From Candidatus Desulfofervidaceae bacterium (lineage in GTDB: Bacteria > Desulfobacterota > Desulfofervidia > Desulfofervidales > Desulfofervidaceae): DNA of 64,000 nucleotides. Position numbers and translations under genes: made by a program. The number at the start of each line of letters is the position of its first letter. The first letter of the stretch is position 1. Below, one piece after another: positions 9,173-49,401 of this stretch. Where the stretch lies: the NCBI GenBank assembly GCA_027064585.1, contig JAMOPI010000031.1, positions 1 through 64,000 on the forward strand, written 5' to 3'. The notes beneath the pieces are model-generated. The model ran no database searches, was not told where the DNA came from, and saw only the letters and a list, made by a program, of their open reading frames with translations.

Positions 9173-11482
9173 CTATAAAGAAAGACCCTTTAATTTAAGT
9201 TTTTTCTCCAGGAGCTTCTTTAATGTCTCTTTACCTTTTTCTTTTAATCTTTTTTCAATAGGTCCCTTATCTAATTTTATCTTGGGTGACTTTATATCGC
9301 CAGCAATAAGAAAGGGAACTAGGTAATTGCCTACATCATCTCTAGGCACAAAGGAAAAAAGCTTCTTTGCCTTTGATCCTTGGATCAACTCAGGACTTAG
9401 CCTAATCTGCGCTTTAAGGTCTAATTTTCCTTTTAATGAACTTTTTCCCTTTACCGAAATTCCGTATTCTTTTTGGTTGGCCTTAGTATTAATTCTCACA
9501 TTTCCATCTATTATATGTAAGCGTCCATCAAGCTGGTTAAAATGAAGATTGGCCAATTTAGGTATATCTAAAAAAGCAGCTATTTCTTTTAAGATTGAAT
9601 TACCATAAACAGTCCCATCTCTTACAGATACCTTTGCCTGCGCATTTAGGTATTTTTCCAGAAAACGTAGCGTAAATCCTTTACCCCCAAAGGCAGCTCT
9701 AGCTTCTCCCTCACCATCTATTCTCCCCAAATTAGACGGCAAAAACATAGTAGTAAAATTACCTATATTCACTTCTGTTAACTGGATTTTCCCCTGGTAA
9801 GCAAGATTTCTGAGATTTATTTTTCCCCATCCCTTTAAATTACCTCCTTGAAGTAATTTACCATAAATGGGTCTTAAAACAAGCACATCTTTTTGTAATA
9901 AATAAGGACAGATAAACCGGGTAAACTGAATTTTGTCATAACGAAGGTCATCTGAAGAAATTTTCCCCTTTGCTTCAAAGGGCAAATGGACAGACTGGCG
10001 GGTTTCGTTTGCATTAGATGGTGGGACAGAAATTGGTGCATTGATTTTAGATGGATTACCCTTAAGGACCAAATCCAGGTTTAGCACTCCCTTTAAGGCA
10101 GAAAACTCGGGAAAAAGAGAAGAAAAATCAGTCAATTCCAGGTGAGGTGATTGAATATTTAGTTTTATCCAGCTAGGCCTAGCCGTGCCTGCAAAGAAAA
10201 GTTTAGAATGGTTAAAGTTAAACTGACCTTGCATTAAAACCAGTTTTTTCTGAGAAAAATTGTAACGAAAGCCATTGGTTAGGCCTGCATGTAGTCCCCT
10301 TCCCATCCCCGTCTTGGTCTTCAAAATTAAATCAGACAAATTTAATTTTAATTCCCCCCTTAGACTAGTCTTGTAATCTGTCTTTATCTTCCCTTCTCCT
10401 TGTAAACTTCCCTTTATTACCTTTATCGGAAGCGGTTTGGGATAAATTTTTACCCAAGGAGTAATGTCTGGGGCGGAAAGATCAAATATAAAAATGGCCT
10501 TTTCTTTTCTAAAGTCGCCGTGGCCATTAAGAAGAATACCGTTTAATAAAAAGGTAAGCTTGGTAAGACGAAACCATTCTTTCTCATCTTCCCAATCCCC
10601 AGTCAGGTTACCCTTGAAGTTTAGCTTGGGTATCTTTTGGCCAGATGGCAAGATTAACTCCAGTCCTTGCCCAAGGATACTTCCGTTAATCTGGAATTTT
10701 TTAGGCACATCACTCTTTAAGTGAAGCGCAAGGATAATTCTTCCAGATACAGATTTAAGAAAATTGGAGAAAAGAGGAGCAAGGCCAGCAAAATTATCGC
10801 CAGAAAGCTTTAAATAAAGCTCGCCCGTTAGGTTAATAGGATTAATCTTGCCTTTTATTTCCCCGGGAAGGTCATTTAGCCTAAAGGAAGCCTTTAATGG
10901 GAAGGAATGATTAAGCCCAATATTTTGGGCCTCAAGGTCAATCTCAGTTAAATTTATCACCTTTTGAGCAACTAAATCTTGATAAAAGATTTGCCCATCT
11001 TCTATCTTCACCTTAGAAACCAAGAGAACAAAGGAAGTATTTCCTTTAGGAGAAGGATGAGGAAGGATTTTTTCTCCTTTTTTCTGAGGTTGTTTTAAAA
11101 GATCAGCAAAATTAAATTCACCTTTTTTGTTTTTAATGATATTTATAAAGGGCCTTTTAAGGACAAAAGTTCCTATTTCTAGGCGCTTGGCCAAAAGGGG
11201 CCAAAAGTGGTATTTCAAAATCAATTCATCGCAGCTAACAAATGTCTTTTGGGACCAGCCAGGCCGCTCTTTAAGCTTAAAACTTTTAATTTCAATCCCT
11301 TTAAAGAGGTTAAATCTTATTTTTTCTATCTCTACCCCTCGTCCCAAGCTGACTTCAAGCTTGGGAATAATGAACCTTTTTAGGCGTTCAGATGTAAAGT
11401 AAAAAGAAAAAAACAAATAAACCGAGATAAAAATTGCTAAAAGAGAAATAAAAATGCCTATTAATATCTTTTTTTTAGACAT
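9173..11482 (-). CDS. AsmA-family inner-membrane-anchored protein
   Basis: A 769-residue protein with a single N-terminal membrane helix (about 5-28) and a long periplasmic part made of repeated beta-strand segments. The block at about 620-690 (FLEKYLNAQAKVSVRDG, then KEIAAFLDIP and a predicted DGRLHI) is the C-terminal AsmA_2 region. AsmA-like proteins of Gram-negative bacteria belong to the bridge-like lipid-transfer group (AsmA, TamB, YhdP) and help move phospholipids to, or organise, the outer membrane. The frequent K and E ending is unusual. The first of the minus-strand unit that leads into the GH57 genes. Confidence 0.82.
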   Translation of the reverse strand: MSKKKILIGIFISLLAIFISVYLFFSFYFTSERLKRFIIPKLEVSLGRGVEIEKIRFNLFKGIEIKSFKLKERPGWSQKTFVSCDELILKYHFWPLLAKRLEIGTFVLKRPFINIIKNKKGEFNFADLLKQPQKKGEKILPHPSPKGNTSFVLLVSKVKIEDGQIFYQDLVAQKVINLTEIDLEAQNIGLNHSFPLKASFRLNDLPGEIKGKINPINLTGELYLKLSGDNFAGLAPLFSNFLKSVSGRIILALHLKSDVPKKFQINGSILGQGLELILPSGQKIPKLNFKGNLTGDWEDEKEWFRLTKLTFLLNGILLNGHGDFRKEKAIFIFDLSAPDITPWVKIYPKPLPIKVIKGSLQGEGKIKTDYKTSLRGELKLNLSDLILKTKTGMGRGLHAGLTNGFRYNFSQKKLVLMQGQFNFNHSKLFFAGTARPSWIKLNIQSPHLELTDFSSLFPEFSALKGVLNLDLVLKGNPSKINAPISVPPSNANETRQSVHLPFEAKGKISSDDLRYDKIQFTRFICPYLLQKDVLVLRPIYGKLLQGGNLKGWGKINLRNLAYQGKIQLTEVNIGNFTTMFLPSNLGRIDGEGEARAAFGGKGFTLRFLEKYLNAQAKVSVRDGTVYGNSILKEIAAFLDIPKLANLHFNQLDGRLHIIDGNVRINTKANQKEYGISVKGKSSLKGKLDLKAQIRLSPELIQGSKAKKLFSFVPRDDVGNYLVPFLIAGDIKSPKIKLDKGPIEKRLKEKGKETLKKLLEKKLKLKGLSL

Positions 11483-13997: not shown

Positions 13998-14034
13998 TGT
14001 TCTCCACCTCCCTTAGATTTTTTGCTTACTTTAA

Positions 14035-14062
14035 GATATAGGAGTTTAGGATTAAAAGTCAA
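14035..14062 (-). promoter_or_regulatory. Promoter of the fba-fbp unit
   Basis: On the minus strand TTGACT (14062-14057) and TATATC (14040-14035) are separated by 16 bases. It lies 38 bases ahead of the TTG start of the aldolase. Confidence 0.55.
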
Positions 14063-14129
14063 GAATTTTCATAAAACTATTTGAAATAAAATCAATATAA
14101 AATCATCACCCTCATCCTGGAGATAAATT

Positions 14130-14322
14130 ATAGTATTCCGCAAAAGGTAATATAAAATAAAGTCAATTCTCCTTTCTCTTTCCTTAAGACCTTAAAAATA
14201 TCATGCGGCCAAGGGTCTTCACGGGCTTGTTCTTAAGTGCATGAGCGAGCGGAACCCACTAATTTATGATTAGGCCTTGGGAGAAAAAGTCTCTCACAAG
14301 TTTAACTATGCGGCTAACCATA
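14130..14322. mobile_element. MITE-like element, short copy
   Basis: The left end starts TATAGTATTCCGCAAAA and the right end, read on the other strand, starts TATGGTTAGCCGCATAG. This gives imperfect terminal inverted repeats of about 17 bases. The internal part contains GCGGCCAAGGGTC and, near the right end, ATTTATGATTAGGCCTTGG. Ends and internal blocks match the longer element at 49006-49401 in the same order, while the unique middle differs. No coding capacity is visible. Confidence 0.65.
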
Positions 14323-14624
14323 AAATATTTTTTCTGTTGTTTTATCGTTAGTTCTGATCAGACATATTGTTTTTGTCTAAAAAGAGAAGAAAGAAAAAGA
14401 AAAAAAAAGTTCTAAAGGTGTTAGCAAAAAGGAAGAAGGAAAATTAATATTAACTAGCCTATATATTACATTTTTTTCTTTTTAAAAATCCCATTTTTTA
14501 GGAAGCTTTGAAAGAAATAACGCCATTTAAGGCTTTAGAAAAAAGTTTAAATTACCTTTAACGCATCTTCACCTAACAGAGCCCTTTTTGACTTTCACCT
14601 TATTTCAAGGTAAAAGGGCCAATC
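14323..14624. other. AT-rich intergenic stretch before the dnaA-like gene
   Basis: About 300 bases, strongly A+T rich, with long purine runs (14380-14410). I see no gene, no DnaA-box cluster and no RNA gene. A small inverted repeat around 14584-14621 (GCCCTTTTTGAC paired loosely with GTAAAAGGGCC) lies just before the ATG of the next gene and may influence its translation. Confidence 0.4.
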
Positions 14625-15980
14625 ATGAAGGAAACAGAAGGCCTTTTAGAAAAAGAGTGGCAACAGGTGTGTGCTTATTTGAGTGAGGTTGTGCCTTCAA
14701 ATCTATATACCCTTTGGATTAAACCCCTCAAACCTTTAGGTATAGAAAACGACCAAGTCATCATTGGATGTCCCAATTCCTTTGTTAAACAGTGGATAAA
14801 GGAACACTTTATTCACTACCTCCAAGAAGCTTGTAGAAGGTGTCGGCCTGAGTGTAAAAAAGTGGTGTTAAAAGTATTGAAAAGAAAAAGAGCTTCAACG
14901 AACGGCCAAAATAGGCGCTTTATTCAACCTTCTTTACCTTTAGCCCCTTCTCGTCCCTGCTTTTGTAAACACTTCACCTTTGAAGAATTTGTAGTAGGAA
15001 AACCAAATGCCTATGCCTATTCAGCCACTTATCATCTTGCCAAAGGAGAATTGGATCAACCCCTTTATCTCTATTCAGATACAGGTTTAGGAAAAAGTCA
15101 CCTCTCTCAGGCCGTAGGCAATTTCATCCTCAGTCAGCAGCAGAATTTACGTATCTTTTATCTCACCACCGAGGAATTTACTAATGAGATGGTCATGGCC
15201 CTTAAAACGAATTATATCTCTGAATTTAAAAAGAAATACCGTAACGAATGTGATATCTTAATCTTAGAAAATATCCACTTTTTAAGCGGCAAAGAAAAAA
15301 TACAGACTGAGCTTGCCTATACACTTGATGCCCTTTTAGAAGCCAAGAAGAGAATTATCTTTACTAGCCTTACACCTCCGCAAAAGATTCCTAGACTTAA
15401 AAAGGAGTTCAAATCCCGCCTGGAAAGTGGCGTATTTGCCTCCATCAATCCGCCGGATAAAGAAACGAGGTTTCACATCTTAAGAAAAAAGGCCCAGAGG
15501 GAAAAGATACATATCCCGGAGAAGGTAATTCAACATTTAACCGAAAAGATAAAAGGAGATGTAAGACGTCTAGAAAGTGCCTTAAAAAATGTAATAGCAC
15601 GGGCCATTGTCCAAAAAAGACCAATAGACCTTGAACTGGCAGAAGAAGTTATTGAGTTTTTTACAGAAAAACATCCACCTTTAGATATAAACACCATTAA
15701 AGAAGTGGTATGTGAACACTATCAGCTCAGCCCAGCCGAATTGATTTCTAAATCACGTAAAAGACGTATTGCTCAACCAAGAAGGGTGGCTATTTATTTG
15801 GCTAAAAGTATATTAGATATTTCTCTAACGGAATTAGGCAAATACTTTCACCGTCATCATGCCACTATTCTAAGTATTTTAAATACGGTAGAAAAGGAAA
15901 TTAATCGCCGTAGTCCTTTGGCGAAGGAAATTGTTTATCTCAAGGAAAAGATCACAAAAAGAGAGGACATTTCTTTATAG
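14625..15980 (+). CDS. Divergent DnaA-like replication initiator ATPase
   Basis: A 451-residue protein with full DnaA layout: domain I (1-80, WxxxCxYL and TLWIKPL), a linker, the AAA+ domain (about 115-330) and a helix-turn-helix domain IV (about 350-445). The Walker A loop is SDTGLGKSHL (151-160). The Walker B region reads ILILENIHFL where DnaA normally has LLIDDIQFL, so both acidic positions differ (Asp-Asp to Glu-Asn). The arginine-finger region SRLESGV is kept. The recognition helix reads FHRHHATILS instead of the usual GRDHTTV, so it would not be expected to read a standard DnaA box. No dnaN or box cluster is nearby. It is probably a second, specialised DnaA paralogue rather than the main initiator. 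Confidence 0.8.
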   Translation: MKETEGLLEKEWQQVCAYLSEVVPSNLYTLWIKPLKPLGIENDQVIIGCPNSFVKQWIKEHFIHYLQEACRRCRPECKKVVLKVLKRKRASTNGQNRRFIQPSLPLAPSRPCFCKHFTFEEFVVGKPNAYAYSATYHLAKGELDQPLYLYSDTGLGKSHLSQAVGNFILSQQQNLRIFYLTTEEFTNEMVMALKTNYISEFKKKYRNECDILILENIHFLSGKEKIQTELAYTLDALLEAKKRIIFTSLTPPQKIPRLKKEFKSRLESGVFASINPPDKETRFHILRKKAQREKIHIPEKVIQHLTEKIKGDVRRLESALKNVIARAIVQKRPIDLELAEEVIEFFTEKHPPLDINTIKEVVCEHYQLSPAELISKSRKRRIAQPRRVAIYLAKSILDISLTELGKYFHRHHATILSILNTVEKEINRRSPLAKEIVYLKEKITKREDISL

Positions 15981-49005: not shown

Positions 49006-49401
49006 TATAGTATTCCGTAAAAATTGATGAGTTTCCCTTCCTCCTTACTTACAGAAATTATACGCCAAGACCTCGTTAGGTGGTCAAGGGTCTACGCTCG
49101 CTGCTCGCTGTGGACCTGCGCCAAAGGCGCAGGCTGCGCCCTTCGGGCTTGCCCTTGACCACACTCGGCCTTGGCCAAAAAAGAAGTTGTGAAAGGAGGA
49201 AAGGGGAAAAAGAAAATTTTCCTTTTTCCTTCCAGCCTCAAATAAAAAGTCAGCGCCGAAGCGAGCGAGGTCAAGGCAGTCGTCAGCCACCCGCAGGGCT
49301 TGGCCTTGACCGCAAAGTGAGCGGAGGCGCTATAATTATGATTGGGCCTTGGAAGGGAAAAAGGTCTCCACAAATTACATAGAATTATGCGGTTAACTAT
49401 A
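49006..49401. mobile_element. MITE-like element, long copy
   Basis: The left end is TATAGTATTCCGTAAAA; the right end, read on the other strand, is TATAGTTAACCGCATAA. Thus both ends share about 17 bases with each other and with the element at 14130-14322. The interior holds two G-C rich palindromic blocks: GGTCAAGGG (49080) with CCCTTGACC (49152), and GGTCAAGGC (49268) with GCCTTGACC (49302). They can fold into long hairpins. A block near the right end (ATAATTATGATTGGGCCTTGG) is shared with the short copy. No protein is predicted; open frames here are by-products of the symmetry. Confidence 0.65.

Follow-up and report, generated by a model that had tools for sequence, protein, structure and literature searches.

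The only DnaA found in a Desulfofervidaceae genome belongs to a divergent DnaA lineage

The dnaA gene and its product

In a window of 64,000 nucleotides from a Candidatus Desulfofervidaceae bacterium (contig JAMOPI010000031.1; the window denotes this whole stretch), open reading frame and profile searches locate a dnaA gene at 14625–15980 on the forward strand, an intact frame with an ATG start that encodes 451 residues. Profile matches, each above its gathering score, place DnaA_N at residues 10–71 (domain I, 14652–14837, forward strand), Bac_DnaA at 115–271 and Bac_DnaA_C at 355–420, giving the order domain I, AAA+ and helix-turn-helix domain IV with all three found. The NCBI equivalog model for DnaA, TIGR00362, is passed with 396.4 bits against a cut-off of 343.9, while the Hda model yields 93.4 bits, below its cut-off of 194.8. 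Since Hda-type regulators consist of AAA+ without domain I or IV and both domains are present here, the protein is not of the Hda type. An AlphaFold model (16-sequence alignment) reached a pLDDT of 86, and a structure search with this model returned DnaA in its top six matches (Z 25.6–30.9), led by 8btg (Z 30.9, 331 residues aligned, rmsd 7.5), 8bv3 (Z 29.9, 233, rmsd 1.3) and 2z4r (Z 29.2, 239, rmsd 2.3), with alignments beginning at residue 111 or 112 and covering domains III–IV. Canonical DnaA (E. coli, B. subtilis, A. aeolicus; TIGR00362) thus provides the best matches in fold and sequence, and shares with the window protein domain I, the Walker A lysine, the arginine finger, sensor 2, the helix-turn-helix domain IV and the minor-groove arginine. 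The protein is filed as DnaA of a divergent lineage and not as a new family.

A preliminary description of the locus had called the gene full length, free of decay and under selection, which is borne out: the frame aligns over its full length with four family members at 68–53% identity, and compared with the copy of the same genus codon positions 1, 2 and 3 differ at 26, 14 and 54% of 448 codons, a third-position bias that points to purifying selection.

Residues were aligned to and numbered after E. coli DnaA from NC_000913; all coordinates below are on the forward strand. Walker A reads SDTGLGKS (residues 151–158, 15075–15098), in which GK(S) with Lys157 is retained and the first glycine of GxxxxGK[ST] is a serine. 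Canonical DnaA carries D-D in Walker B (D235-D236), whereas the window protein has E215-N216 (15267–15272) within ILILENIHFL, in place of hhhhDD. Sensor-1 Asp269, box VII Arg281 and Asp433 of canonical DnaA are likewise lost, being replaced by L249 (15369–15371), E261 (within 15405–15419) and H411, while the arginine finger R265 (R285, within 15405–15419), sensor-2 R314 (R334, 15564–15566) and R378 (R399, the minor-groove reader, 15756–15758) are kept. The start of the recognition helix, FHRHHATI (15846–15869), is one residue shorter than its counterpart; H411, H412, A413 and T414 stand for D433, H434, T435 and T436 of GRDHTT, so that T435 is replaced by A413 in addition to the exchange at D433, and G430 is deleted ahead of the helix. 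Further changes are Q408 to R387 and R245 to K225. The two motif changes of the preliminary description, LILENIHFL for LLIDDIQFL and FHRHHATI for GRDHTTV, are therefore confirmed, and relatives share them: LENIHF occurs in all five genomes of the family, which argues against a chance change of the Walker B pair, and RHHAT in four, with RHHSS in the fifth. Its statement that domain I, Walker A and the arginine finger are kept is correct for domain I, R265 and Lys157, and fails for the first Walker A glycine.

The genome of the window comprises 1,923,821 bases in 38 contigs, with completeness 100 and contamination 0.78. PF00308 and PF08299 each match once, both at the gene described here, and no other Bac_DnaA or DnaA_C domain and no Hda-type paralogue was found in these 1.92 Mb. 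Canonical dnaA usually, though not universally, lies beside dnaN. The window gene lies on contig C31, unlike canonical dnaA not adjoining dnaN, which is found on C10 in the order gyrA, 307 bp, dnaN, gyrB, a stretch that lacks dnaA; gyrA and gyrB were identified by eye. Among the 59 phylum genomes searched, the four family relatives hold one full-length DnaA each and no additional match above 42.2 bits (G002 being a single contig at 99% completeness, G004 81% complete); extra matches in these two score 21–42 bits and cover profile positions 38–246 or 139–236. As the sole carrier of Bac_DnaA and DnaA_C in a genome rated 100% complete, the protein would in all likelihood be the initiator and not an additional DnaA, and its role as chromosomal replication initiator of its bacterium is strongly indicated. 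The earlier proposal of a second initiator-like protein is thus not upheld for this genome, and a purely regulatory role in replication or transcription, also suggested, is unlikely, because some protein must initiate.

A DnaA lineage of Desulfobacterota

A single-protein search of genome contigs returned no relative, and relatives came from an alignment-based profile search, of whose 586 loci the best 80, a profile-biased list, were named and used. Together with 62 rows from the window and the 59-genome phylum set and with E. coli DnaA they form an alignment of 143 DnaAs, from which the two pieces of the split G040 gene were left out. In a quick tree 91 of the 143 rows, 27 from phylum genomes and 64 from the best 80 of 586, form one clade (SH-aLRT 99), for which we coined the name clade II. 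A careful tree was computed with trait columns removed from 65 rows, namely the phylum-genome rows less four short or near-duplicate ones, plus seven outgroup rows, the clade II rows of the best 80 of 586 loci being set aside; it unites all 26 clade II rows (bootstrap 100, SH-aLRT 93) and the family of the window (100/100). In this sample (best 80 of 586 and 59 phylum genomes) clade II members are Desulfobacterota-type records only, and records titled Desulfobotulus, Desulforhopalus, Desulfopila, Mailhella and Thermosulfurimonas (among the best 80 of 586) fall into the same clade as the window DnaA. Among open-licence PMC articles, judged by title and start of abstract, no published description of the lineage was recognised.

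Across the 143 rows, best 80 of 586 included, Asp269 of sensor 1 occurs in 1 of 91 clade II proteins vs 51 of 52 others and Arg281 of box VII in 3 of 91 vs 50 of 52, a near-universal loss inside the clade and near-absent outside, which marks a lineage-wide change and not scatter. In the same rows the deletion at 430 is present in 91 of 91 vs none of 52, Asp235 in 8 of 91 vs 51 of 52 (the remaining 83 having Glu), Asp433 in 32 of 91 vs 50 of 52, and an acid at 236 in 75 of 91 vs 52 of 52, with eight changes needed on the tree for the non-acid state. The Walker A lysine is kept in clade II, as are, again counting the best 80 of 586, Arg285 (87 of 91 vs 52 of 52), Arg334 (91 of 91 vs 51 of 52) and Arg399 (91 of 91 vs 33 of 52, the remainder Lys). 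The window DnaA belongs to clade II by tree, by the lack of Asp269 and Arg281, by the deletion at 430 and by Glu at 235; it differs from the clade at large, in which the acid at 236 is mostly kept (75 of 91, best 80 of 586 included), by its Asn. At position 433 the 91 clade II rows (best 80 of 586 included) show 32 Asp, 20 Tyr, 12 Asn, 9 Ser and 6 His, five of the six His belonging to the family of the window.

Profile scores fail to separate the two DnaA types, and the census therefore rests on the tree. Clade II occurs in 27 of the 59 phylum genomes: seven are dual, one (G009) carries canonical-like fragments in addition, and in the other 19 clade II is the sole type, 16 of these 19 being at least 97% complete and three single contigs. 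Canonical type only was found in 28 (in G040 in two pieces), and none or weak partial matches only in four. No dnaN was found in the fetched flank of any of the 91 clade II genes (best 80 of 586 included), 81 of which have at least 1.5 kb downstream, whereas 32 of 35 canonical-type genes of the 59 genomes have dnaN there, though their flanks are mostly shorter; the three without it are L021, L027, which is at the end of a contig, and L050, which G023 carries as a second copy. In all seven dual genomes the canonical-type copy adjoins dnaN; its match lacks the N-terminal part in G006 and G045 and is divergent in G044. The idea of a second DnaA, which fails for the window genome, hence applies to these seven of 59. 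Clade II is a separate gene away from dnaN and the only DnaA found in some genomes, including those of the window's family.

Three further loci were observed in the course of the census. The dnaN-side DnaA of dual genome G044 (L049, 5970–7280) is strongly divergent, with no Asp269, no Arg281 and a long branch, as if a canonical copy were decaying beside clade II. Two different clade II dnaA genes, L089 and L105 (among the best 80 of 586), stem from one Desulfobacteraceae MAG with the same record prefix and isolate name, so that clade II itself may be duplicated there. In G014 (L178, 2015–3121), a C-terminal stretch of a transposase-like protein matches the DnaA profile; we take this product to resemble a REP-associated transposase and not an initiator.

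Upstream region, DNA reading and origin candidates

A promoter-like element on the forward strand (14588–14616), TTGACT-17 bp-TAAAAG, lies 8 bp before the dnaA ATG, and TTGAC[T/A]-17-TAAAAG is found 7–8 bp before an ATG at dnaA in five of five family genomes; from this spacing, the dnaA transcript may be nearly leaderless. Upstream comparison within the family brought out a purine-rich tract and this promoter. In the intergenic region upstream of dnaA (13998–14624) a motif search found no TT[A/T]T[C/T][A/C]ACA box, and Rfam yielded nothing above gathering score and a single match below threshold. A dispersed intergenic repeat of about 250–350 nt with paired CCTTGACC/GGTCAAGG arms was observed at 49060–49400 of the window and at 10150–10440 and 17570–17800 of L206 (contig C37 of G000); two copies were read and a third is suspected from a repeated word. 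A degenerate piece of it may lie upstream of dnaA at 14200–14330.

For E. coli DnaA, the excerpted text of PMC5742627 assigns base reading to helix 434–451 and Arg399. The recognition segment of Thermotoga maritima DnaA, fnrshpvv, aligns without gap and has Ser at Asp433, while its D-D Walker B and sensor-1 Asp are kept, unlike E-N and L249 here. The box published for the Thermotoga protein, ACCTACCAC, bears little resemblance to TTATNCACA (PMC10316083 and PMC10797057, in excerpt); in four genomes of the window's family ACCTACCAC is neither enriched nor clustered (12/12, 12/21, 15/15 and 7/15, motif/control).

Boxes upstream of clade II genes differ between groups of the clade. Up to 640 bp upstream and with the best 80 of 586 included, 14 of the 32 Asp433 loci together hold 15 copies of TTATC[A/C]ACA (against 0.40 in shuffles, which reach 3 at most), and TTATTAACA occurs three times at Asp433 loci, while Tyr433 genes show TTATTAACA seven times in 7 of 20 loci (shuffles 0.28, maximum 2) and TTATC[A/C]ACA four times. 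Within the flanks, TA:CA amounts to 8:4 at Tyr433 loci vs 3:14 at Asp433 loci (Fisher p 0.018, among related sequences, best 80 of 586 included), and a link of Tyr433 with TTATTAACA is suggestive. TTAT[C/T]AACA also occurs upstream of some other clade II dnaA genes (best 80 of 586 included). Both TTATC[A/C]ACA and TTATTAACA were absent from the 640 bp upstream at the five loci of the window's family; the Asn433 and Ser433 groups, with three and two box copies in 12 and 9 loci (best 80 of 586 included), show few boxes as well, so that this family is not alone in lacking them.

Across whole genomes, TTATCCACA shows no enrichment over the reversed control in four members of the family (20/24, 23/24, 40/30 and 47/44) and forms no cluster. 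Among genomes with canonical DnaA only, it stands out in G026 (8/2, five of the eight flanking dnaA) and G036 (28/8, one of the 28 at dnaA) and not in G012 (8/13), which renders its absence non-specific; in clade II-bearing G019 (15/10), G056 (7/7), G020 (6/8) and G033 (18/19) it does not stand out. TTATYAACA lies slightly above control in three family genomes (72/59, 76/69 and 95/79). For the same motif, G033 (clade II only, Gln433) was observed to hold 100 copies against 19 of the reversed control, five other genomes showing 1.1- to 1.2-fold.

The origin of the family was not located by TTATCCACA, ACCTACCAC, TTATYAACA, repeated words or GC skew. The skew of G002, computed from 20 stretches of which one was masked throughout and two in part, is too weak to place it, and words recurring around dnaA, dnaN, parS/parB and rpmH formed no cluster common to genomes; one striking repeated-word cluster was rejected as an origin, being a dispersed repeat. 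Among the TTATYAACA sites listed for part of G002, three fall within 1.3 kb, 1.8–3 kb downstream of dnaA, at least one of them inside an open reading frame. With the looser TTWTYMACA, 3 of 17 family loci hold three sites inside a span of 1 kb; dinucleotide shuffles average 0.95 such loci, and none of 40 reaches three. The groups in G000 and G003 (L065, 6636–7314; L211, 9537–9690) are near dnaN and fall in part within gyrA, and that in G002 (L037, 8218–8786) sits at the beginning of dnaA; all are possible origin candidates. Separately, parS-like sites next to parB were observed at G002:C1:1534655 (exact), G003:C2:69243 (one mismatch) and G000:C24:29667 (two mismatches; here the reversed control also matches elsewhere), with none found in G001.

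The new site preference proposed in the preliminary description is accordingly plausible, with indirect support in that the helix that reads DNA has an altered start, boxes vary upstream of clade II genes and TTATCCACA is not enriched, and is called into question by the loose box-like groups at three loci of the family, close to dnaN or dnaA, which slightly lower the odds for a new box. That the box of the window's family differs from TTATCCACA can be held with weak to moderate confidence.

The nucleotide switch and competing readings

In textbook accounts, hydrolysis of DnaA-ATP and a tight grip on the nucleotide help to set when bacterial chromosomes replicate. In the excerpted text of PMC5742627, sensor 1 of E. 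coli DnaA contributes to the 10–100 nM affinity for ATP and ADP, contacts of domain III and the loading of helicase depend on Arg281, which also represses the intrinsic ATPase, Arg285 is required for intrinsic ATPase activity as well as for ATP-dependent activation, and hydrolysis requires Arg334; an excerpt of PMC4661922 ties Lys178, Asp235 and Asp269 to nucleotide binding. Clade II DnaA most likely acts like DnaA, in that domain IV would bind boxes, ATP-bound AAA+ domains would stack via the retained sensor 2 and arginine finger, and a filament so formed would open the origin. In a DnaA that has lost Asp269, Arg281 and Asp235 while retaining Lys178, Arg285 and Arg334, ATP-dependent assembly should persist, with nucleotide held less tightly, and for the family's Asn at the second Walker B position general AAA+ knowledge leads us to expect slow hydrolysis. 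With the sensor-1 Asp, the box VII Arg and mostly the Walker B Asp gone, and N216 in the family, holding of ATP and ADP and fast hydrolysis are probably weakened. We therefore propose an altered nucleotide cycle in clade II with moderate confidence, against which stand the kept arginine finger, sensor 2 and Lys157, a pattern that also fits an ordinary ATP cycle with E215 compensating, and the acid retained at 236 in 75 of 91 clade II rows (best 80 of 586 included).

The explanation we consider probable as a whole is that this clade II DnaA is the chromosomal initiator of its bacterium, with a nucleotide cycle that is probably altered and a box that is probably not TTATCCACA. A possible, if unlikely, alternative is an ordinary DnaA whose motif changes reflect neutral drift: it would cycle ATP and recognise boxes essentially as other DnaAs do, E215 would take over the Walker B function, and its boxes near dnaN or dnaA would be relaxed. 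Such drift would agree with the kept Lys157, R265, R314 and R378, with near-canonical TTATC[A/C]ACA upstream of Asp433 clade II genes (15 copies in 14 of 32 loci, best 80 of 586 included) and with the loose box groups in 3 of 17 family loci, yet it sits poorly with a loss of D269 and R281 that is near-universal within clade II and near-absent outside, and with box sequences that differ among clade II groups. A bolder version of the preferred explanation, which we rate as rather unlikely, holds that clade II gave up the tight ATP/ADP switch, that the family lost hydrolysis (N216) and acquired a new DNA target, and that the lineage fully replaced canonical DnaA in many Desulfobacterota, so that replication would be limited by something other than DnaA-ATP hydrolysis.

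That the protein is a second, regulatory DnaA-like protein while the true initiator, a canonical dnaA, is missing from the draft assembly is very improbable: the assembly does consist of 38 contigs and seven of 59 phylum genomes carry both DnaA types, but completeness is 100%, dnaN lies between gyrA and gyrB (by eye) with no dnaA there, and the four family relatives, including single-contig G002 (99%), have no other DnaA match above 42.2 bits. A decaying paralogue or mobile-element remnant is hardly credible. Its non-canonical motifs and the lack of a widely shared neighbourhood (the commonest flanking family occurs in 15 of 91 clade II loci, best 80 of 586 included) could be read in that sense, but the gene is full length, shares 68–53% identity with four family members, shows strong third-position bias of changes and is the sole DnaA found.

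We therefore return to the reading in which a separate DnaA lineage has likely replaced the canonical one, with an altered nucleotide switch and perhaps an altered box. Origin prediction from TTATCCACA and replication-gene neighbours, as used in the excerpted part of PMC4403523, may mislead in these bacteria. If the reading is true, a DnaA lineage that lost residues linked to the switch and is the sole DnaA found in 19 of 59 genomes would constitute a natural test of how much of the switch is needed.
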